A stretch of 29,586 nucleotides of DNA from a virus. Where the stretch lies: the IMG/VR virus record IMGVR_UViG_3300037520_000460, positions 1-29,586 of that record; one strand, written 5' to 3'. The translations under genes and the position numbers were made by a program. Of this stretch, positions 12,916 to 24,477 are shown in pieces; position 1 is the first letter of the stretch; each line of letters begins with the position of its first letter. Below the pieces are notes generated by a model. It saw only the letters and a program-made list of their open reading frames with translations. It searched no databases and was not told the DNA's origin.

Positions 12916-13156
12916 AGCCAAGTCGCGCATTCAGCCTCCGCTCTCGATCGAGGGCGAGATGAATGTCCCGTGGCTGACGACGGGCCAAGTCGCTGCACGT
13001 CTCGGAGTTTCGATGAGAACCGTCTCGAAGTGGATCGACAACGGAATTCTTCGAGGGATTCGAATCCCGTTCTCAAAGGATCGCCGAGTTCATCCGCAGG
13101 CACTTGTCGAGTTTGAGAAGTTGCACGGATTCGATCGAGCGCGAGGCAAGAAATGA
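12902..13156 (+). CDS. Excisionase/MerR-type HTH DNA-binding protein
   Basis: 84 aa. ATG 12902 overlaps the lipoprotein end by 14 bases and is preferred to longer upstream starts. Residues ~22-70 form a winged HTH of the HTH_17/excisionase kind: WLTTGQVAARLGVSMRTVSK, then IDNGILRGIRIPFSKDRRVH. Such proteins bind DNA as Xis-like factors or small regulators. No integrase was found, so a regulator (for late genes, or at the early palindromes) is more likely than excision. Confident fold, unknown target. Confidence 0.75.
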   Translation: MSTNKAKSRIQPPLSIEGEMNVPWLTTGQVAARLGVSMRTVSKWIDNGILRGIRIPFSKDRRVHPQALVEFEKLHGFDRARGKK

Positions 13157-13854
13157 ATCGACTCATCCCGATCGAGCCAGACTATGACGATCCTCGCGCG
13201 TTCATCGTGCAGGCTTCAGATATGGCCATCGTCTCGCCGTTCGCGTCCGCGACTTCTGGAACCGGGGCCACCGTCGCTTTCACTTCCGTCCTTGGCGCGA
13301 TCGGCGCAGTATCCGGCAGATACGGAATCGCATCGCTCGCGACAGGAACAACGACGACGGGACGCGCACAGATCCAGACTCCGCTCGTCGACCAGATCCT
13401 ATTTGGATACGGTCGGCTCTCGATGTCCGCGATGATCCTCACGCCTTCCTCTCTCTCGGATGGCACGAATCGATACGGCCTCAAGATCGGATTCGGCAAT
13501 CAGACGACGCTCATCACGGAAGCCTGCGGAGGAGTGTTTCGATATCGAGACAACATCAACTCCGGCAAGTGGCAAGTGAACGTCGTCGACAGCGCGTCGA
13601 CATTGACGCAGGTCGATACGGGTATCACAGTCGCCGCGTCGACTTGGTATCGACTTGAGATCATCATCAATCCAGATGCCTCGATCTCCGAGTTCTTCAT
13701 CGACGGCGTGAGAGTCGCAACCGTGACCGCGAATCTTCAGAGCGGAACATCGATCACCGCAGGCCTACTCGCGATGATCATCAAAGCACTTGGAACGACA
13801 TCGAGAACTTTCTACATCGACAACCTCGAATTCAGACAGGAAGTGAATCGATGA
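13153..13854 (+). CDS. Virion appendage protein with lectin-like (LamG/concanavalin) fold
   Basis: 233 aa, ATG 13153 (ATGA). Beta-rich with the alternation expected of a jelly-roll: FGYGRLSMSAMIL, a Y-G-L-K-I-G-F strand, then TWYRLEIIINPDASISEFFI and the D-G-V-R-V-A-T-V-T strand, closing with FYIDNLEFR. The sequence W-Y-R-L-E-I...F-F-I-D-G...F-Y-I-D-N-L-E is typical of LamG/concanavalin-like domains in phage structural proteins. It may bind host glycans or decorate the virion. Next gene coupled (ATGA 13851). Confidence 0.6.
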   Translation: MNRLIPIEPDYDDPRAFIVQASDMAIVSPFASATSGTGATVAFTSVLGAIGAVSGRYGIASLATGTTTTGRAQIQTPLVDQILFGYGRLSMSAMILTPSSLSDGTNRYGLKIGFGNQTTLITEACGGVFRYRDNINSGKWQVNVVDSASTLTQVDTGITVAASTWYRLEIIINPDASISEFFIDGVRVATVTANLQSGTSITAGLLAMIIKALGTTSRTFYIDNLEFRQEVNR

Positions 13855-14898: not shown

Positions 14899-15226
14899 GC
14901 CTCGCGCACAAATCGACTTCAAACTTGTTCAATCTCTCGCCTCGATCGGATGCACTCATGCCGAGATCGCGACGATCTGCGGAGTTGCAGAACCGACGAT
15001 TCGTCGCCGATGCCGAACCGAGATCAACAAGGGATACGATGAGATGAGGATGAGCCTTCGCCGTTGGCAGTATGAGAAGGCGAAGGAAGGCAACGTCGCG
15101 ATGCTGATTTGGCTCGGCAAGCAGCATCTTGGACAGCGCGAGAAGATTGATGAGACGAGGCGCGAAGAGGTCGTCACGATCGAGCCGTTCGAGGCTCCGA
15201 AGCCTCGGCTCGCGGATAGCGCGTGA
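14891..15226 (+). CDS. terS: Terminase small subunit
   Basis: 111 aa. ATG 14891 follows GGAGGAAGCGA and overlaps the methyltransferase stop by 8 bases. HTH at residues ~13-38 (QSLASIGCTHAEIATICGVA, then TIRRRC), a linker helix with LRRWQYEKAKEGNVAMLIWL and the typical end LGKQHLGQREK. The H/T-x-x-E-I-A-x-x-x-G-V and N-x-A-M-L-I-W-L-G-K-Q-x-L-G-Q patterns are characteristic of phage small terminases. It recognises the packaging site and loads the large subunit, encoded immediately downstream with overlapping stop/start. Confidence 0.8.
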   Translation: MGRPRAQIDFKLVQSLASIGCTHAEIATICGVAEPTIRRRCRTEINKGYDEMRMSLRRWQYEKAKEGNVAMLIWLGKQHLGQREKIDETRREEVVTIEPFEAPKPRLADSA

Positions 15227-16401
15227 AGATTCGCGTTCCAACTCCAGAGTCGGTTCTTCATGCTTCGCAACTCGATGTCTTCCGTCGACTGCGACGATTC
15301 AACGTGCTTGAGATCGGCCGTCGTTGGGGAAAGACGAAATTCGAAGAGTTCGTTATTCTCAACGACGCGATCCGAGGCAGGAGGACGGCATGGTTCGCGC
15401 CTTCATACAAGTACCTTGCCGAGCCAGTTCGCGATCTTGAACGCGCTCTCCTGCCGCTCATCTCAAAGCACGATCGAGTCGAGAAGCGCATCGAACTTTC
15501 AACCGGAGGCACGATCGACTTCTGGACGCTCGAAGACGCTGACGCAGGCCGAGGCCGTTTCTATGATCGAGTCGCGATCGACGAGGCCGGATTCGTCGTC
15601 GGCCTTCTCGACATCTGGCGAGCGGCGATTCGACCGACTCTCGCCGATCGAAAGGGAAGCGCGATCTTCGCCGGAACGCCGAAAGGTACAGGCGATTTTC
15701 ATCGTCTATTCCTCGAAGCGGAAGGAGACACGACTGGCGCATGGGCCGCGTTCCGAATCGGCTCGATGTCGAATCCGTTTCTCGATCCTGCGGAAGTCGA
15801 AGCCATGCGAGCGAGTCTGCCGAAGGCAATCGCCGATCAGGAACTTGAAGGCATTCCCGCAGAGGACGGAGGCAATCCGTTCGGCCTCGATGCGATCCGC
15901 GCTTGCATCGCGCCGATGTCGACGGCAACTCCAGAGGCTTGGGGAGTCGATCTCGCGAAGAGCCAAGACTGGACGGTCGCAGTCGGCCTCGATGCTGAGG
16001 GCCGCGTCTGTCGGCTCGAACGATGGCAAGCACCGTGGAACGTCACGCGCGAGCGACTCGCGAAGATGATCGGCAATGCTCCGGCGCAGATCGATTCGAC
16101 CGGAGTCGGAGATCCGATCGTCGAAGATCTTCGCAAGGTTTGTCGAAGAACCGAAGGCTTTAAATTCACAAGCCAGAGCAAGCAGCAACTCATGGAAGGC
16201 CTACAGATCGCGATCTCGACTGCGGATATCCGCTTTCCCGATGGTTGGCTTCGGAGTGAACTTGAGTCGTTTGGCTTCCGATACTCAGGAAGGAACGTCT
16301 CCTATGAGGCGACAGTCGGACACGACGACGGCGTTTGCGCTCTCGCGCTCGCAGTCCTCGCGCGTCGAGCGCGAAGGCCTCTCATGGTGAAAGTCATCTG
16401 A
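15223..16401 (+). CDS. terL: Terminase large subunit
   Basis: 392 aa, GTG 15223 overlapping the terS stop (GTGA). ATPase: Walker A GRRWGKT (~32-38), Walker B RVAIDEAG (~118-125), coupling motif FAGTPKGTGDF (~148-158). RNase H-like nuclease: GVDLAKSQDWTV (~243-254), DSTGVGD (~289-295) and GHDDGVCALALA near residue 370, carrying the metal-binding Asp residues. It pumps DNA into the prohead and cuts it. At 392 aa it is compact for TerL but has both domains. The portal follows in the stop codon. Confidence 0.95.
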   Translation: MKIRVPTPESVLHASQLDVFRRLRRFNVLEIGRRWGKTKFEEFVILNDAIRGRRTAWFAPSYKYLAEPVRDLERALLPLISKHDRVEKRIELSTGGTIDFWTLEDADAGRGRFYDRVAIDEAGFVVGLLDIWRAAIRPTLADRKGSAIFAGTPKGTGDFHRLFLEAEGDTTGAWAAFRIGSMSNPFLDPAEVEAMRASLPKAIADQELEGIPAEDGGNPFGLDAIRACIAPMSTATPEAWGVDLAKSQDWTVAVGLDAEGRVCRLERWQAPWNVTRERLAKMIGNAPAQIDSTGVGDPIVEDLRKVCRRTEGFKFTSQSKQQLMEGLQIAISTADIRFPDGWLRSELESFGFRYSGRNVSYEATVGHDDGVCALALAVLARRARRPLMVKVI

Positions 16402-19400
16402 TGAATCTACTCGCACGAATCAAAGCGGCATTCACTCCGGAGAAGTACTTCAATTCTTCGATGACGATACTTCGCGGCGAGCCTGCGAAGCGTTCACCGT
16501 TTGACTATCGATCCGCCGTTCTCTCGTATCGATCTTGGATCTACGCGGCGGCGAATCTGAATGCCGTCGCTGTCGCGAGTCAGCCTCTTCGCTTGTACGT
16601 TCGGAATAAGAGTCAGTCGACGAAACTCTGGAACACGCGCAAGGCTTCGCGCCGCACGAAGGCATATCTCTTCGGAGATCTCGAACAGCGACCAAGTCGA
16701 TACGCGCTCACGAAGGCCGCAGAGTACGGAGACGACTTCGAGGTCGTCGACGACGCGCATCCGATCCTCCAGTTACTCTCGAAGGTCAACCCCTACCAAA
16801 ACGGATTCGATGCGACCGTCCTCCGCGTTCTGTACGGAGAGTTGACGGGCAACGCGTACGTGCATCCAGTAATCGATCAGCGTCTCGGCGTTCCGGTGCA
16901 ACTCTGGAATATGCCTTCGCAATTTGTCGAAGTCGTCCCCGGTCAGCAAGGCGAAGACTTCATCAAGGAATATCGCTACGGCGCGACCGAAGAGCAGAAG
17001 CGCGAGAACACATACGCGCCGGATGAAGTGATCCATTTCAAGCGACCGAATCCGGCGGATATGTACTACGGCATTGGGAAGGTCGAGGCCGCTTGGGGCG
17101 CGATCATGGCGAACGAAGCCATTCACGAGATGGATGTCGCGTTCTTCGCGAACAAGGCGCGTCCTGACTATCTCCTCGTCGTGAAGTCGCCTGCACACGA
17201 CGACGAACTCGAACGGCTCGAAGTCTCGATCGACGAGAAACTTCGCGGATCGAAGCGCACCGGACGCTTCCTCACGACGACGGCAGACATCGACCTCAAG
17301 CCTCTTTCTTTCCCTCCGAAGGATCTCGCAGGCCGCGAGCAGATCGTCGAAGAGATCGCCGCAGTCTTCGGCGTTCCCGTCTCGATGCTCAAGGCGAACG
17401 ATCCGAATCTCGCGAGCGCGACCGTAGGCTTCGCATCATGGAAGCAGACGACGATCTTGCCGCTGCTTCGCATGGATGAGGAGACGCTGAATCAGAATCT
17501 CCTTCCGCTCTTCAATATCGAAGGGGATGCGTTCCTCTGCTATGACAATCCAGTTTCCGAAGATGAGCGATTCGCATTCGAGAAACTCCGCTCGATGGTT
17601 GCAGGCGGGATCATGACCGCGAACGAGGCGAGAATGCGCGAAGGCCTTGAGCCAGTCGAAGATCCGATGGCCGACGCTCTTCTCGTCAACGGACAGCCTC
17701 TCGGCGGCCCTGCGCCTGTCGCGCCTCTCGGTATGGCTTCGAGTGCGCCGGACGGCCTCACGGGGCCTCTGGATGCCTCAAACGAGATCGAGGAGCCTCC
17801 GATGCTTCCGACACAGCCAGAACAGAAGGACGCGCTCTCGGATTGTGTCTCGGAGAAGATTCCGACGTTGATCGAGGAAGGCTACCCGCAAGATCAGGCA
17901 GTCGCGATCGCCTATTCGATGTGCGCCGAAGGGAAGACGCTCGACGAGATCGAGACGAAGGCAATCGGCGACATCGACACTCGTCCTCCGCAGTCGGTCG
18001 CCGACAATGCTCGCCGCGCTCTCGAAGTTCGCGCTCGCAAGCCCGAGAGCGAGCGCGGAATGACGGCAGTCGGAATCGCTCGCGCTCGCGACTTGATGAA
18101 TCGAGTTCGCCTCTCTGAAGATACGATCCGCCGCATGGCTTCGTACTTCGAGCGTCACGAAGTCGACAAGCAAGGCTCCACTTGGGACGAGCAAGGCAAG
18201 GGATGGCAGGCTTGGTACGGTTGGGGAGGCGACGACGGCTTCGCTTGGGCAAAGCGCAAGATCGAGGAGTTCGATCGAGAGCGCGAGCGCAACTCCGAGC
18301 GGAATAAGAAATGCGCCTGCGGATGCTCCTCGAAGAACGGCGGCGGCGATCCTCCTGCCAAGCCATCGGAGCGCATCAGCGGAAGCGATCGCAACGAGGA
18401 AGGCTCCGCGAGCGGATCGCGCGGCGGAATCGAGATCAGCGAATCCACAGAGAATGCTCTTCGAGCGAAGGTCGACGAACACAACGAGAAGCACGGAGAC
18501 GAGAAAGGGAAGCGCGTCGATCTCGGAATGCTGAAGGCCGTCTATCGCCGCGGCGCAGGAGCGTTCTCGACGAGCCATCGCACCGGAGTCGGTCGCGAGC
18601 AATGGGCCATTGCGCGAGTAAATGCGTTTCTGACTCTCGTTCGTCGTGGCAAGCCAGAGGATGCTGACTACACAACCGACTTCGATCTTCTGCCGGACGA
18701 CCATCCAAAGAAGAGCGATGCGAAGAAATCTGCCTGCGGTTGCGGATGCGACAGCGATCCATTCGAAGGACTCTCGATCGACGACGCTTGGACGAAGGCA
18801 CTCGAAGACATCGCAGAAGAGATCGACTGCATCGAGGGAAAGAACTGCGGTGTCGGCTCTGAAGGATTCGAGGAAGGCAACACTTGCGGAGGATCAAGCG
18901 GCGGCGGCGGATCGAGCGAATCGTCTTCGGCTCCGAAGGAATCGAAGCCTGCGAGCGACAAACCAAAGGCTCCAAAGAAGCCTCGCACGTCGAAGCCTGC
19001 GAAGGGATCTCCTCCGGCGGAAGGCATGGCAAAGCCACAGTCGCACTCGGTCGAACTCCCTGCGAAGCCTTCGCGGATCACGATTGATGTCGCAGAGAAT
19101 GCGTTCCGAGCGATGGGCTACCAGATGACAGCATGGAAGCCATCGGCGACCGGAACGACGGTCACGCTGAAGGATGACTCCGGCAAGGAATCGAAACTAC
19201 CGATCTCCGATGCGGTGAATCTCATCTATGCGAATTCGAGCGATCCGAAGGCAAACGCTGCTCCGGCAATGAAGCCAAAGAAATCTCTTCTCTCTGATCT
19301 CTGGACGAAGATGATCGAGGCCGACGAGATTGATCCGCCGCACGTTCTCACGAAGGATCTCGGCAAGGACGCGCTCAAGGAGTTCGACAAGATCACGAAG

Positions 19401-20306
19401 CGCGAGGATGAACTCGGCAAGAGCGTCGGTCGCATCTTCGATCGACAAGTCAAGGCCGTCCTCGAACGCATTGCGAAGCAGGACGCTCCGACTCAAGAAC
19501 TCGCCGCAGAAGTGCAGTCTCTTCTCGAATCGAAGAAGTGGCGCAAGGACATCGTCGACGCGCTTCGACCGTATCTCGAAGACTCGCTCGCCGCAGGGAT
19601 CATCCTCGGGAAGACGACGCTTGAAAAGATCAAGGCTCTTCCGGTGAACTTCGACAAGCACGGCGAGGATCTAAAGGCATACGCTCGAACAGAGTCGATC
19701 CGTCTCGCGAATCGCGCGGCAGACTCGACGAACCGATGGACGGCAGTCAAGTTCTCGAAGGTCATCGGAGACGGAGTCGCGAATGGCGAGACGATTCCAG
19801 AGATCGCGGAGCGCGTGAAGACGTGGGCGATCAAGGACGGAGACGCGGAACGCGCAACGACTCGCCGCGCTTTGACGATCGCTCGAACGGAAGCGCAACG
19901 CGCGAGCCGACGCGCTGAGGTCGAAGCATGGAAGGCATCTGGCGTAGTCAGCGGGAAGACGTGGCTACTCGCGCCTGATCCTTGCGAGTTCTGCGAGGCC
20001 GCGAGCGATGCGTTCTCGAAGAACGCTGTCGGCCTCGAAGACTCTTTCTACGGTGAAGGCTCGGAGATCATCGGGAAGGACGGCGGAATCATGGTCGCCG
20101 ATTATGAAGCGATCGACGGGCCTCCTTTGCATCCGAACTGCCGATGCGCTCTTCAGCCTCGGCTCGATGACGAGTTCGAAGCAGAAATGCAGCAAGCAGA
20201 GCGCGAACTCGCTGAAGCGGAAGCAGAGAATCTCCGCCAGATCATCGCGGAGAATGCAGAAGAGATTGCAGCGATTGACGCTCAAGTCGAAAGGATCATG
20301 CGATGA
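16401..20306 (+). CDS. Giant fusion: HK97-type portal + Cys-rich modules + Mu gpF-like minor head protein
   Basis: 1301 aa from ATG 16401 (overlaps the TerL stop). Residues 1-~440: HK97-family portal. ~475-512: module with Cys at both ends (DCVSEKIPTLIEEGYPQDQA, C at the close). ~525-627: GMTAVGIARARDLMNR and SYFERHEVDKQG with a Trp-rich end. ~637-650: CACGCSSKNGGGD. ~683-770: YRRGAGAFSTSHR, WAIARVNAFLTL. ~776-786: ACGCGCDSD. ~787-890: NCGVGSEGFEEGNTCGG then Ser/Pro/Lys linker. ~950-1290: Mu gpF-like minor head domain with PDPCEFCEAASD and PPLHPNCRCALQ, then an acidic coiled coil. These parts are usually separate genes. I see no frameshift or stop in the frame. Confidence 0.85.
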   Translation: MNLLARIKAAFTPEKYFNSSMTILRGEPAKRSPFDYRSAVLSYRSWIYAAANLNAVAVASQPLRLYVRNKSQSTKLWNTRKASRRTKAYLFGDLEQRPSRYALTKAAEYGDDFEVVDDAHPILQLLSKVNPYQNGFDATVLRVLYGELTGNAYVHPVIDQRLGVPVQLWNMPSQFVEVVPGQQGEDFIKEYRYGATEEQKRENTYAPDEVIHFKRPNPADMYYGIGKVEAAWGAIMANEAIHEMDVAFFANKARPDYLLVVKSPAHDDELERLEVSIDEKLRGSKRTGRFLTTTADIDLKPLSFPPKDLAGREQIVEEIAAVFGVPVSMLKANDPNLASATVGFASWKQTTILPLLRMDEETLNQNLLPLFNIEGDAFLCYDNPVSEDERFAFEKLRSMVAGGIMTANEARMREGLEPVEDPMADALLVNGQPLGGPAPVAPLGMASSAPDGLTGPLDASNEIEEPPMLPTQPEQKDALSDCVSEKIPTLIEEGYPQDQAVAIAYSMCAEGKTLDEIETKAIGDIDTRPPQSVADNARRALEVRARKPESERGMTAVGIARARDLMNRVRLSEDTIRRMASYFERHEVDKQGSTWDEQGKGWQAWYGWGGDDGFAWAKRKIEEFDRERERNSERNKKCACGCSSKNGGGDPPAKPSERISGSDRNEEGSASGSRGGIEISESTENALRAKVDEHNEKHGDEKGKRVDLGMLKAVYRRGAGAFSTSHRTGVGREQWAIARVNAFLTLVRRGKPEDADYTTDFDLLPDDHPKKSDAKKSACGCGCDSDPFEGLSIDDAWTKALEDIAEEIDCIEGKNCGVGSEGFEEGNTCGGSSGGGGSSESSSAPKESKPASDKPKAPKKPRTSKPAKGSPPAEGMAKPQSHSVELPAKPSRITIDVAENAFRAMGYQMTAWKPSATGTTVTLKDDSGKESKLPISDAVNLIYANSSDPKANAAPAMKPKKSLLSDLWTKMIEADEIDPPHVLTKDLGKDALKEFDKITKREDELGKSVGRIFDRQVKAVLERIAKQDAPTQELAAEVQSLLESKKWRKDIVDALRPYLEDSLAAGIILGKTTLEKIKALPVNFDKHGEDLKAYARTESIRLANRAADSTNRWTAVKFSKVIGDGVANGETIPEIAERVKTWAIKDGDAERATTRRALTIARTEAQRASRRAEVEAWKASGVVSGKTWLLAPDPCEFCEAASDAFSKNAVGLEDSFYGEGSEIIGKDGGIMVADYEAIDGPPLHPNCRCALQPRLDDEFEAEMQQAERELAEAEAENLRQIIAENAEEIAAIDAQVERIMR

Positions 20307-20971
20307 ACGATCTGAAGCGGAAGGCACTCGGTGCGGAACTCACTTCGACAGCGAAGGGATTCACCGCAATCATCACGGCAGAGACGCTCGATCGCGACGG
20401 CGAGGTCTTGATCCCTGCCGGAATGAACTCGAAGGAGTTCGAGCAGAATCCGACGCTCTTCTGGAATCACGACTACGCCGAGCCAGTCGGAACGACGGTC
20501 GGCCTCAAGCGTCGAGAGCGCGACATCGTTGGCGACTTCGTCTTCGCAAAGCGGCCTGACGGATACTCTGGCGATTTCTTTCCCGAGGTCGCCGCTGCTC
20601 TCGTCGGCCAAGGCATCGTCCGCGCAGTCTCGGTCGGATACGTGCCGGAGGCCGGAGGAGTGCGCCGCGCGACAGACATCGACAAGAAGAAATACGGCGA
20701 GGACGTGAAAACGATCTACTCGCGATGGAAACTGCTCGAAGTCTCGCTCGCTCCATTGCAGGCGAATCCGGAGGCACTCATCACAGCCGTGAAGAAGGGA
20801 ATCTGTTCGCCTGCTTCCGCGCGGAAATGGTTTGGCATCGAGCCTCCGAAGCGCACGGTCGTTTCGATTTCGATTCCGGCGCACTCATCTACAAAGGCGG
20901 CACGGTCGATCATGCTCTCTGAAACTGTAGAGCGCGAAATTGCTCGCGCTCGCGGTCGGCTCTGGCTCTGA
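20303..20971 (+). CDS. HK97-family prohead protease
   Basis: 222 aa, ATG 20303 (ATGA). Typical order: TLDRDGEVLIPAGM, catalytic His in FWNHDYAEPVG (~residue 52), catalytic Ser in AVSVGYVPE (~112), and WKLLEVSLAPLQANPEAL (~145-162). It is the herpesvirus-like assemblin fold that cleaves the capsid N-terminal delta domain. The C-terminal 40 residues are a basic extension. It sits between the portal fusion and the capsid gene, as in HK97. Confidence 0.9.
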   Translation: MNDLKRKALGAELTSTAKGFTAIITAETLDRDGEVLIPAGMNSKEFEQNPTLFWNHDYAEPVGTTVGLKRRERDIVGDFVFAKRPDGYSGDFFPEVAAALVGQGIVRAVSVGYVPEAGGVRRATDIDKKKYGEDVKTIYSRWKLLEVSLAPLQANPEALITAVKKGICSPASARKWFGIEPPKRTVVSISIPAHSSTKAARSIMLSETVEREIARARGRLWL

Positions 20972-21058
20972 CGTTCGGCAACGCTCACAGCACTTCGCTT
21001 GAAACGCGGCCTCGCTCGGAAGAGAAGAGTTGTTTCTTTGAATTCGAAAGGTACAGAC
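20972..21058 (+). promoter_or_regulatory. Capsid gene leader
   Basis: Eighty-seven non-coding bases before the major capsid ATG at 21059. They contain a weak GAATTC-centred inverted repeat (CTTTGAATTCGAAAG, about 21036-21050) and GAAAGG close to the start. No clear promoter found, although strong expression of the capsid gene would be expected. Confidence 0.35.
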
Positions 21059-22417
21059 ATGAAGACGATGAATCTCGATCAGTTCAAGAACGCGCTTGAA
21101 AAGGCCGCTCGCATCAAGGGTGCGGACGGCGTGGCAATGCAGAAGAAACTTATCCTCGAAGGCTACATGATTACCGATGCTGAAGGCATGGCCGTTGATC
21201 CAGACACGCTCGACGTGACGATCGCTGCCGCTGCTCCATCGACCGACATGATGAGCGAAGAGGACAAGGAGCAGATCTCGAAGTCGATCCGTCGCGAAGT
21301 CGCTTCGCGTCTCGATGCGATGCCGCGCGGCCTCTCGGCAGTCGCCAACGTCGACGACAAGCCTTGGGAACGCGCTCGCGTGTACAGCGCAGGCCGCAAG
21401 GCGTTCTCCTCGAAGGAGATGGCTTGGAAGTTCGGCACGTGGTGCCTCGCGACTCTCGGCCACAAGAAGTCGGTCGAGAATTGCAAGAACTTCGGCATCA
21501 CGATCAAGGCTCACACTGAAGGCGTGAACTCGCAAGGTGGCTTCCTCGTTCCTGACGAGATGGCCGCTGAACTCGTCACGCTTCGCGAGCAGTACGGTGT
21601 CTTCCGTCGCAACGCGAAGATCTACCGAATGACGAGCGACACGCTCCGCATCCCTCGCAAGAATACGGGCCTCACGGCGTTCTGGGTCGGCGAAGCGATC
21701 GCCGCGACCGAGTCGACGATGGGCTTCGACAACGTGCAACTCGTCGCGAAGAAGTTGACCGCGCTAACGACCGTCTCGAACGAACTCCTCGAAGACTCGA
21801 TCATCGACCTCGCGAGCGATGTCGCGAACGAAATCGCGTACCAGTTCGCATTCAAGGAAGACGATGCAGGATTCAACGGAGACGGCACGTCAACCTACGG
21901 CGGCGTTGTCGGGCTGAATACTGCTCTCTCTGATCCGACCTTCCAAATCAGCGACGGCGCAGCGTCGGCATACTCTGGCGTGTTGGTCGCGGAAGTTTCG
22001 GGAGGCTTCAAGAAGTTGCCGCAATGGGCTTATCAACGAGGCAACGTCAAGATCTACTGCTCGCGAGCGGCATACTCTGGCGTCTTCGAACGTCTCGCAT
22101 TGACCGCTGGCGGCGTGACTGCCGCAGAGATGACCGCAGGAATTCGCGAGCCTCGATTCTTCGGATATCCCGTTGAATACACGCAAGTGATTCCGGCAAC
22201 CGAAAGCGGCGGCGCAGTCTTCGCTTACATCGGCGACCTTTCGCAAGCCTGCTATCTCGGCGATCGCCGCGCGACCTCGATCGCGTTTAGCGATTCGGCT
22301 CTCAACGCCTTCGAGCAGGACGAGCGCGTTGTTCGTGGAACCGAGCGCGTTGACATCGTTTGCGCGAACGTCGGATCGTCGTCGGTCTCCGGCGCAATGA
22401 TCAAGATGACCCTCTGA
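21059..22417 (+). CDS. Major capsid protein, HK97 fold
   Basis: 452 aa. ATG 21059 is preferred to 20999 because the upstream 20 residues are Arg-rich and poor. The N-terminal ~130 residues are helical and acidic (scaffolding-like delta domain). The mature part has the HK97 signposts: TEGVNSQGGFLVPDEMAAEL, then RMTSDTLRIPR, FWVGEAIAATES, TALTTVSNELLEDS, a GDGTSTYGGVVGLN E-loop/insert region, and PVEYTQVIPA near the end. It forms the icosahedral shell after cleavage by the upstream protease. Confidence 0.95.
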   Translation: MKTMNLDQFKNALEKAARIKGADGVAMQKKLILEGYMITDAEGMAVDPDTLDVTIAAAAPSTDMMSEEDKEQISKSIRREVASRLDAMPRGLSAVANVDDKPWERARVYSAGRKAFSSKEMAWKFGTWCLATLGHKKSVENCKNFGITIKAHTEGVNSQGGFLVPDEMAAELVTLREQYGVFRRNAKIYRMTSDTLRIPRKNTGLTAFWVGEAIAATESTMGFDNVQLVAKKLTALTTVSNELLEDSIIDLASDVANEIAYQFAFKEDDAGFNGDGTSTYGGVVGLNTALSDPTFQISDGAASAYSGVLVAEVSGGFKKLPQWAYQRGNVKIYCSRAAYSGVFERLALTAGGVTAAEMTAGIREPRFFGYPVEYTQVIPATESGGAVFAYIGDLSQACYLGDRRATSIAFSDSALNAFEQDERVVRGTERVDIVCANVGSSSVSGAMIKMTL

Positions 22418-22436: not shown

Positions 22437-22859
22437 ATGAGAAATATCTCCCGAATCATTTCCGGCGGCGGCAATGGAACGACCGTCACGCAAATCACGT
22501 CGACGTTCGACACTCGCGGTTTTTCATACGCGACGATTACCGTCTTCGGAATTGCAAGCACAATCGCTCCGAGTACTGCGTCATCGAGTCACGTTCTCGA
22601 AGAGAGCGACAATGCAACCGCTTCATTTAGCACGGTTTCAGGCGCAACGCCTAGTCCGATCTCATCGACTGCGGCCATCGCGACGACTATCGCCAAGATG
22701 GTCTACAACGTCGACCTTCGAGGTCGCAAGCGATATCTCAAGGTGACGTATGGGCCGAACTCCGGCGATGCTCTCCTTGTGACTTGCGACTTGGGCAATG
22801 CGGCGGACGGAATCGTTTCCGCGAGTGAGCAAGGCTCCGCTGCTGGAGCAACGGTCTGA
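22437..22859 (+). CDS. Virion surface protein, paralogue 1 (capsid decoration-like)
   Basis: 140 aa, ATG 22437 with AAAGGAG. Beta-rich with Ser/Thr/Ala. It shares with the gene at 22919 the segments DTRGFSYA, L(R/K)GRKRYLK and DGIVSASE/DGVASATE, at the same positions and with equal length (140 aa each). The position directly after the capsid gene suggests head decoration. Base use is more relaxed (more T) than in most of the genome, as for the Cys-rich and tail-tube genes, fitting high expression. Confidence 0.65.
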   Translation: MRNISRIISGGGNGTTVTQITSTFDTRGFSYATITVFGIASTIAPSTASSSHVLEESDNATASFSTVSGATPSPISSTAAIATTIAKMVYNVDLRGRKRYLKVTYGPNSGDALLVTCDLGNAADGIVSASEQGSAAGATV

Positions 22860-22918: not shown

Positions 22919-23341
22919 ATGAATACTCTTCAGAATGTCAAGATCGTTACGGCTGTACAAAACGCAGGATCGACGACCATTACTGGTTCCGTTGATACTC
23001 GCGGTTTTTCTTATGCGATGGTCGTCATGGCATCGACAGTCGACGGAACAATTTCGAGCGTTGCAAGCAATACCAAGATCGAGCAGAGCGACGACAACTC
23101 GACGTGGGAGGCTATGCCGGGACTCGTGACCGGTACAGACTTCACTCCTTCAACTGCTTCCATCGCTGCTACTCAGCCAAAAATCGTTTTGGGTTTCTCT
23201 TTGAAGGGACGCAAGCGATACCTGAAGTTCACCGGAGGCGCAGTTTCCGCGCGTCACACGGTGGCATTCATGCTCACGAATCCGAACGATGGAGTGGCAT
23301 CCGCCACGGAGTCAGGCGTGACAAACTTCTTCATGCTTTGA
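22919..23341 (+). CDS. Virion surface protein, paralogue 2 (capsid decoration-like)
   Basis: 140 aa, ATG 22919, weak AAGGA upstream. Clear tandem duplicate of 22437: same length, DTRGFSYA near residue 26, LKGRKRYLK near 95 and DGVASATE near 127. Similarity elsewhere is modest, so the copies have diverged. They may form a heterodimeric or alternately used decoration protein. Confidence 0.65.
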   Translation: MNTLQNVKIVTAVQNAGSTTITGSVDTRGFSYAMVVMASTVDGTISSVASNTKIEQSDDNSTWEAMPGLVTGTDFTPSTASIAATQPKIVLGFSLKGRKRYLKFTGGAVSARHTVAFMLTNPNDGVASATESGVTNFFML

Positions 23342-23392: not shown

Positions 23393-23427
23393 TCTATCAT
23401 TCCAGAGCCTCACGGCAAGGAGACATC

Positions 23428-24477
23428 ATGGAAGAACTGAAGGACGGCGCGGACATTGGCTCGGGCTTGACGCAAATTCGCACAGAGGACGCGATTCAAT
23501 GGCTTCGTTCGATCGCATCGCAACTCAAAGACGGAGGCGAACTCCGGCTCGAAGTGCCTGATCTCGACGGAGTGATGAAAGCCTACAACGACGGAGAGCC
23601 AGAGACGGAGAAGATGCTCATCGGTGAAGGCGCGAAGTCGCTTTGGAATCGCGAGAAACTCTCTCGCGTTCTGAATCTCGCAGGCTTTGAAGTGTCTCGC
23701 GGGAAGAATGGATGGGCATGGAACGAAACGAAGACGAAGATTTCAGTCGTCGCTCGCAAGTTTGCGCGTCCGTTTCCGAATCGTCCGATGCGAGATATCC
23801 ATTGCATCATGTCGCTTCCTCGCGTTTGTTGGACAGATACTCAAGGCGTTCTGCATCATGCGGCGGCCTCGCTTGGCTTTGATGTCACGCGAGCGACCGG
23901 AGTCTTCTGGGGGCAATGCCTCGAACGTCTTCTCGAAACTTGCCTCACGATGGAAGGCGTGAAGTACGTTCTGACGGTTGACTACGATTCGATCTTCGAC
24001 GCTGAAGACATCATCCGATTGTGGCAAGTCATGGAGACGCGACCAGACGTTGCCGCGCTCTGTCCTCTTCAGATCGGACGAGACAAAGATCTGCCGCTCT
24101 TCTCGATCAAGAACGACGACGGAACGCTTCTGAAAGAAATGACGGAAGATCGTCTCTACACAGACGCTCTCGAAATGAACACGGGTCACTTCGGCCTGAC
24201 GCTGATTCGCCTTGATGCAATTCGTGATCTTCCTCGTCCTCTCTTCCTCGGAGTTCCCAACAAGGACGGCAACTGGGGAGAAGGCCGAGTCGATGACGAC
24301 ATCCATTTCTGGAATCGCCTTCGAGAAGCAGGCAGGAAAATTTGCCTCTGTCCTCGCGTTCGCATCGGGCATCTTCAAAACGTCGTCACTTGGCCTTCGG
24401 AGAATTGCACGGCAATCACGCAATACCTTTCGAAATACCATGATGACGGGAGGCCGACCGAATGCATGACATTCTGA
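23428..24477 (+). CDS. Methyltransferase-remnant and glycosyltransferase fusion
   Basis: 349 aa, ATG 23428 behind AAGGAGACATC; the longer frame from 23104 is Arg/Ser junk crossing the previous gene. Residues ~15-95 look like the C-terminal half of a class I methyltransferase (WLRSIASQLKDGGELRLEVP, then KLSRVLNLAGFEVSRG), with no SAM-binding glycine motif visible. Residues ~115-349 look like a GT-A glycosyltransferase: VLTVDYDSIFDAED with a D-x-D near 185, AALCPLQIGR, and DDDIHFWNRLREAGRKIC. Probably adds sugars to a virion or host glycan. The N-terminal remnant may be a docking part. Confidence 0.65.
   Translation: MEELKDGADIGSGLTQIRTEDAIQWLRSIASQLKDGGELRLEVPDLDGVMKAYNDGEPETEKMLIGEGAKSLWNREKLSRVLNLAGFEVSRGKNGWAWNETKTKISVVARKFARPFPNRPMRDIHCIMSLPRVCWTDTQGVLHHAAASLGFDVTRATGVFWGQCLERLLETCLTMEGVKYVLTVDYDSIFDAEDIIRLWQVMETRPDVAALCPLQIGRDKDLPLFSIKNDDGTLLKEMTEDRLYTDALEMNTGHFGLTLIRLDAIRDLPRPLFLGVPNKDGNWGEGRVDDDIHFWNRLREAGRKICLCPRVRIGHLQNVVTWPSENCTAITQYLSKYHDDGRPTECMTF

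Follow-up and report, generated by a model that had tools for sequence, protein, structure and literature searches.

A portal–MuF fusion gene with an exchangeable cassette slot in a family of environmental phages

An uninterrupted portal–MuF frame

The stretch of DNA analysed here (hereafter the window) is the complete IMG/VR virus record IMGVR_UViG_3300037520_000460 of 29,586 bases, which is classed as linear and is hence possibly a fragment. The gene under study, at positions 16401–20306, starts with ATG and encodes 1301 residues free of internal stops. Pfam searches revealed three domains above the curated cut-offs, namely Phage_portal (PF04860) at residues 114–415 (E 1e-44), DUF5824 at residues 706–756 (E 9e-7) and Phage_Mu_F (PF04233) at residues 1118–1251 (E 1.6e-8), and PHROG profiles added two modules at residues 482–507 (phrog_2423) and 522–630 (phrog_2859). 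With PF04860 and PF04233 both above their cut-offs in one frame, the product is a fusion of an HK97-type portal with MuF, arranged as follows:

16401..17690, + strand: portal part (residues 1–430; PF04860 at 114–415)
17829..17939, + strand: CVSEKI module (residues 477–513; phrog_2423), a near-constant accessory module
17964..18296, + strand: WGGD helical module (residues 522–632; phrog_2859)
18312..18326, + strand: Cys patch 1 (C638–C642, CACGC), the left joint of the variable slot
18342..18713, + strand: cassette 1, the DUF5824 module (residues 648–771)
18735..18749, + strand: Cys patch 2 (C779–C783, CGCGC), between cassettes 1 and 2
18840..18887, + strand: KNCGVGSEGFEEGNTC leader (residues 814–829), with a Gly/Ser-rich linker next to it
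19047..19271, + strand: cassette 2, a small alpha-beta domain (DAB; residues 883–957)
19311..20303, + strand: MuF part (residues 971–1301; PF04233 at 1118–1251)

The linkers between these modules are rich in Gly, Ser, Pro and Lys and are predicted to be disordered. DAB has the predicted fold order helix-strand-strand-strand-helix, and the MuF part contains a CEFC...HPNCRC motif, read from the sequence. Fold search of the middle region against the PDB gave no match below E 1.6, with a model of mean pLDDT (predicted local distance difference test score) of only 58. DAB has no match among 50,697 phage records, and a faint HicA-like match was set aside.

A scan of IMG/VR for relatives yielded 79 loci. 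The same open gene is present in three independent contigs (L003, L004 and L005), whose portal parts share 92.6–93.8% nucleotide identity with the window. Compared to these three, every segment of the window gene is under purifying selection, with ratios of nonsynonymous to synonymous polymorphism (pN/pS) of 0.07 in the portal, 0.09 in the junction at residues 426–480 and 0.03 in the leader; DAB shows 23 synonymous and no nonsynonymous changes. An original prediction, made from the letters of the window alone, had placed a portal and a Mu gpF-like domain in one uninterrupted frame, as the Pfam domains and the relatives now confirm, and had named a stop or frameshift hidden near residues 440–480 as one of the findings that would refute it, which the constraint on the junction excludes. 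While the window contig was the only one known, the frame could have been an error of assembly or sequencing, or two genes read through by chance; with many independent contigs and a junction under purifying selection, this is extremely improbable.

Cassette exchange between portal and MuF

After removal of duplicate contigs, the fused portal–MuF frame was found in 72 contigs, in addition to 17 in which the portal frame ends before MuF; a separate MuF frame is also visible in 15 of these 17 split contigs. Across the relatives the order is fixed: portal, CVSEKI module, WGGD module, Cys patch, variable slot and MuF. The two helical modules and the Cys patch are near-constant in the fused and split forms alike, and the region from the Cys patch to MuF is variable. 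Exceptions are few, with the CVSEKI module absent from L059 and L060, both helical modules absent from L089, L111 and L120, and an extra insertion after the CVSEKI module, behind another copy of the KNCG leader, in L044 and L045. The slot may be empty, as is common (L014–L019 and many more), or hold DUF5824, the KNCG leader with the α/β domain, both of these as in the window, a coiled coil, or domains resembling ADP-ribosyltransferases (ART-like).

On a portal DNA tree of 84 contigs, the slot content changes at least 28 times, the least possible number being 11, and one clade of 33 rows with near-identical portals holds many different slot contents. Individual comparisons locate the breakpoints. 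The α/β cassette of contig L042 shares 93.5% DNA identity with that of the window, whereas the portal (78.5%), MuF (71.7%), terminase (72.5%) and capsid (74.6%) sequences are far more diverged; L040 is the same kind of case. The block of high identity extends from within the Cys patch to LSDLWTKxIEADEI at the MuF N-terminus. Therefore, this cassette has been exchanged between distant relatives without the surrounding head genes, and these two conserved places are its joints. The region between portal and MuF is thus an exchangeable cassette slot, which the original prediction had missed, as it had missed that portal–MuF fusions are already a known kind.

Cys patches, the KNCG leader and payloads

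At least three cysteines within eight residues are found upstream of MuF (the stretch searched) in 88 of 95 MuF-bearing family frames, compared to a background of 67 in 1020 unrelated long frames; most of the frames lacking a patch there have it further upstream or lie on a cut contig. The Cys patch is not due to chance. The two patches of the original prediction are both present (C638–C642 and C779–C783), but its term "Cys-knot-like" was wrong, as three cysteines in five residues do not have the spacing of a cystine knot. Excision or insertion by means of direct DNA repeats was also judged unconvincing, for the two patches within one gene share exact repeats of 6–11 nt only. Beyond being mere joints, the patches might act at the protein level, either as a metal site or as a disulfide tether holding portal-attached chains to MuF. 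The patch is retained when the slot is empty and at the head of separate MuF frames, and its cysteines are kept while the neighbouring residues and codons vary; against this, the spacing is not conserved (CACGC, CGCGC, CECC and CACC), and no partner Cys site was identified. We consider such a function possible, at a little under even odds.

The GKNCG...GNTCGG motif of the original prediction corresponds to the leader at residues 814–829. Scanning with the pattern K[ND]CGxGxxGFxxGNTC gave 60 loci with 52 distinct frames, nearly all of them portal proteins of the window's family, where a linker rich in Gly/Ser or in acidic residues separates the leader from a payload. Several unrelated payloads stand behind it, and from these sequences the motif behaves as a leader ahead of varied cargo. 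Elsewhere it is found near the N-terminus of a small frame (L085) and after the DUF5824 module in L113. A stricter form of the motif is absent from about 85,000 prokaryote genomes; genome contigs yielded a single good relative, in a Rhodobacteraceae metagenome-assembled genome, the binning of which may be wrong. A separate case is an XkdF-type protease protein with Peptidase_S78_2 (L088, IMGVR_UViG_3300037465_000378), which contains a near-exact tandem duplication of 150 residues, each copy opening with the KNCG leader; the small frame L085 on the same contig bears a third leader.

Most payloads gave nothing significant against Pfam and PHROG, apart from a match to ART-PolyVal below the curated cut-off (E 2e-4) for the payload shared by L029, L032, L033 and L125. 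For L020, sequence searches of the PDB and profiles gave no match, but when its predicted fold was compared with the PDB, the top six matches were ADP-ribosyltransferases without exception (E 2e-3 and probability 0.99 for the best; low-confidence model, pLDDT 52), including VahC, Certhrax, iota toxin Ia and CDTa. The payloads of L020 and L091 have R-G, STS and QEGYLQE motifs in common, and those of L082, L121 and L056 look ART-like by eye only. The form of the gene is associated with its content: ART-like and coiled-coil payloads occur only at split loci, where they form the C-terminal tail of the portal, and the DUF5824 and α/β cassettes lie between portal and MuF in fused frames, or in the MuF frame in L033 and L121.

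In L029, L033 and L020, the next frame opens at an ATGA or ATGAG overlap with the end of the portal frame, and consists of a short unrelated head, a Cys patch and then MuF (the L020 contig stops within the patch). In L029 and L033 this head corresponds to a small protein rich in Cys, which is joined in frame to MuF and overlaps the end of the payload. A weak homologue follows the MuF gene in Flavobacterium phage lotta8. In the lotta8-2 sequence (L249, 1928–3656), MuF has an HExxH motif (VHEFGH) in its C-terminal part and is followed by a 66-residue Cys-rich frame related to that of L029. As this relative follows an HExxH-bearing MuF, we do not favour reading the small Cys-rich frame of L029 as a cognate immunity protein for the ART payload.

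A proposed portal-tethered cargo chassis

We propose, with a probability of about 0.6, that the fusion protein serves as a cargo chassis inside the capsid, tethered through its portal part and bearing exchangeable cassettes between the Cys patch and MuF. When the portal ring is built into the procapsid, the C-terminal side of the portal comes to face the capsid interior. In the proposed mechanism, this side would carry a chain of two helical modules, Cys patch, cassette slot and MuF; because it faces inwards, cargo behind the portal would be loaded into the head in a fixed copy number. MuF and cassettes would thus enter covalently attached to the portal, one copy for each subunit of the ring. 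Recombination at the Cys patch and at the MuF N-terminus, the two conserved joints, would move cassettes between phages. In some close relatives, the cassette is an ART-like domain that forms the free C-terminal end of a portal frame, and MuF follows in a frame of its own that overlaps it. Release may come about through cutting or, where the gene is split, because MuF is a product of its own; relatives with enzyme-like payloads have naturally split frames, so that parts can be freed without cutting. The likely purpose would be to pack proteins that accompany the DNA and act soon after it enters a new host.

Several points weigh against this proposal. No activity is assigned to the window's own cassettes, DUF5824 and DAB, and neither has a PDB match, on the low-confidence model (pLDDT 58). 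The single ART call that rests on a profile is sub-threshold, and the short exact repeats between Cys patches (6–11 nt) give direct-repeat excision no support. As ART-like and coiled-coil payloads never occur in the fused form, this form may carry structural rather than effector modules.

The distribution of the helical module and DUF5824 in other phages bears on this question. The WGGD module, often together with DUF5824, stands on the C-terminal side of portals of lambda type (PF05136) and of one of Mu type (PF06074), so that WGGD modules stand behind three unrelated portal families; it is also present in a Mu-type protease protein (PF10123), and in isolated phages it occurs in frames annotated as portal, prohead protease, capsid maturation protease or major capsid protein. 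The original prediction was right that such modules are mobile in phage head genes. This recurrent attachment to unrelated head proteins, as seen in their sequences, argues for a function within the head. On its own, DUF5824 is also found outside annotated head genes in Salinibacter and Pelagibacter phages. Two genes annotated as major capsid protein begin with the module, that of Synechococcus phage S-CBS1 (L246, 3980–6490) with WGGD and that of Roseobacter phage CRP-831 (L247, 2983–5907) with WGGD and DUF5824; both are probably multi-domain module-protease-capsid fusions.

Accordingly placed at the N-terminus of capsid and protease genes of other phages, the site of cleaved scaffold parts, WGGD and DUF5824 are consistent with the view that the inserted modules are structural, serving as internal scaffold, as spacers or in organising the DNA, and that they are swapped through the usual mosaicism of phages and have no effector role. 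The lack of an enzyme match for DUF5824 and DAB, and of any ART-like domain in the fused form, argues in the same direction. However, ART-like domains occupy the same slot behind the same KNCG leader in near-identical relatives, and the empty slot is common, which indicates that the cassettes are dispensable. A purely structural role has, in our view, a chance not far short of even.

The genes next to the fusion are those of a head operon:

15223..16401, + strand: terminase-like gene, upstream (Terminase_6C E 2.5e-4, just under the curated cut-off)
20303..20971, + strand: prohead serine protease (Peptidase_S78), overlapping the portal–MuF stop codon; candidate processing enzyme
20999..22417, + strand: HK97-type major capsid protein, downstream of the protease gene

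The adjacent prohead protease of the original prediction is therefore real, and the chain might be a true polyprotein that the S78 protease cuts at head maturation, freeing portal, modules and MuF inside the capsid. Besides the position of the Peptidase_S78 gene directly downstream, the predicted disordered, Gly/Ser/Pro/Lys-rich linkers and the separate MuF product of relatives fit such processing, but no cleavage motif was identified, and we regard it as rather doubtful. Further genes were noted in the window. Directly 3' of the capsid gene lie two tandem paralogues of 140 residues (22437–22859 and 22919–23341; phrog_5707, function unknown), possibly decoration proteins. Between the capsid and head-tail adaptor genes, the frame 23425–24477 has, by sequence look, a methyltransferase-type N-terminus and a glycosyltransferase-like domain, its sole match being a weak PHROG of unknown function. 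Upstream of the terminase, 13153–13854 encodes a protein with an SO2946-like C-terminal / concanavalin-like lectin domain.

Microbacterium cluster EA/EB phages also have portal–MuF fusions (PMC7302621), and gp46 of Streptomyces phage Gilgamesh is another, of about 817 residues, whose match to the window is confined to the portal part. Both have portal and MuF-like protein in one frame at the same place of the head operon, but unlike the window family, no exchangeable slot, Cys patches or KNCG leader are described for them. In SPP1, the portal gp6 binds the MuF protein gp7 and brings a few copies into the procapsid interior, a route by which toxins on MuF proteins were proposed to be delivered (PMC6316719). 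The window family would likewise bring in MuF by the portal, whereas gp6 and gp7 are separate proteins that bind non-covalently and have no cassettes.

Effectors fused to MuF or portal are already known (PMC5512222, PMC9503650). Similar to the window family, MuF polymorphic toxins (PMC5576092; Bxa, PMC11699363; Apk2) link MuF to variable effectors including ADP-ribosyltransferases, with proposed capsid delivery. A small frame lies beside their toxin, and the partner frame of the split relatives L029 and L033, which is fused in frame to MuF, may be comparable. However, these toxins follow MuF on its C-terminal side and come from temperate phages of Firmicutes or Bacteroidales, whereas the slot of the window family precedes MuF and lies behind the portal. 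With its MuF at the C-terminus and its variable region upstream, the window protein does not belong to this class, and its fused gene has no such small frame. Polyvalent proteins (PMC5512222) resemble the proposed chassis as multi-domain, capsid-packaged proteins of mixed effectors, including the ART-PolyVal domain, and in their simplest forms PBECR or 2H is joined to MuF or a portal. The window protein has several domains too, but Pfam and PHROG revealed no known effector domain among them, ART-like domains being confined to split relatives. In contrast, the carrier of the window family is a portal–MuF fusion with cassettes exchanging between two fixed joints, and no MPTase, methylase or helicase domains were seen. 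An exchangeable portal–MuF slot with these joints is not described in the open-access journal literature searched.

Altogether, the cargo chassis may, as a tentative extension rated slightly below an even chance, represent a new delivery system of environmental phages, with a slot in the portal ring, Cys-patch joints, a KNCG...GNTC leader and swappable head-packaged effectors (at some loci with a paired small protein fused to MuF), while the head genes stay constant. If true, it would explain how a defined small number of proteins enters the head without separate packaging signals. The near-isogenic natural variants (empty, DUF5824, α/β domain and ART-like) would allow direct comparison of head cargo, and the joints would provide a handle for new early-acting phage effectors in metagenomes. 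Moreover, a testable role would emerge for DUF5824 and the WGGD module, which recur in many head genes.
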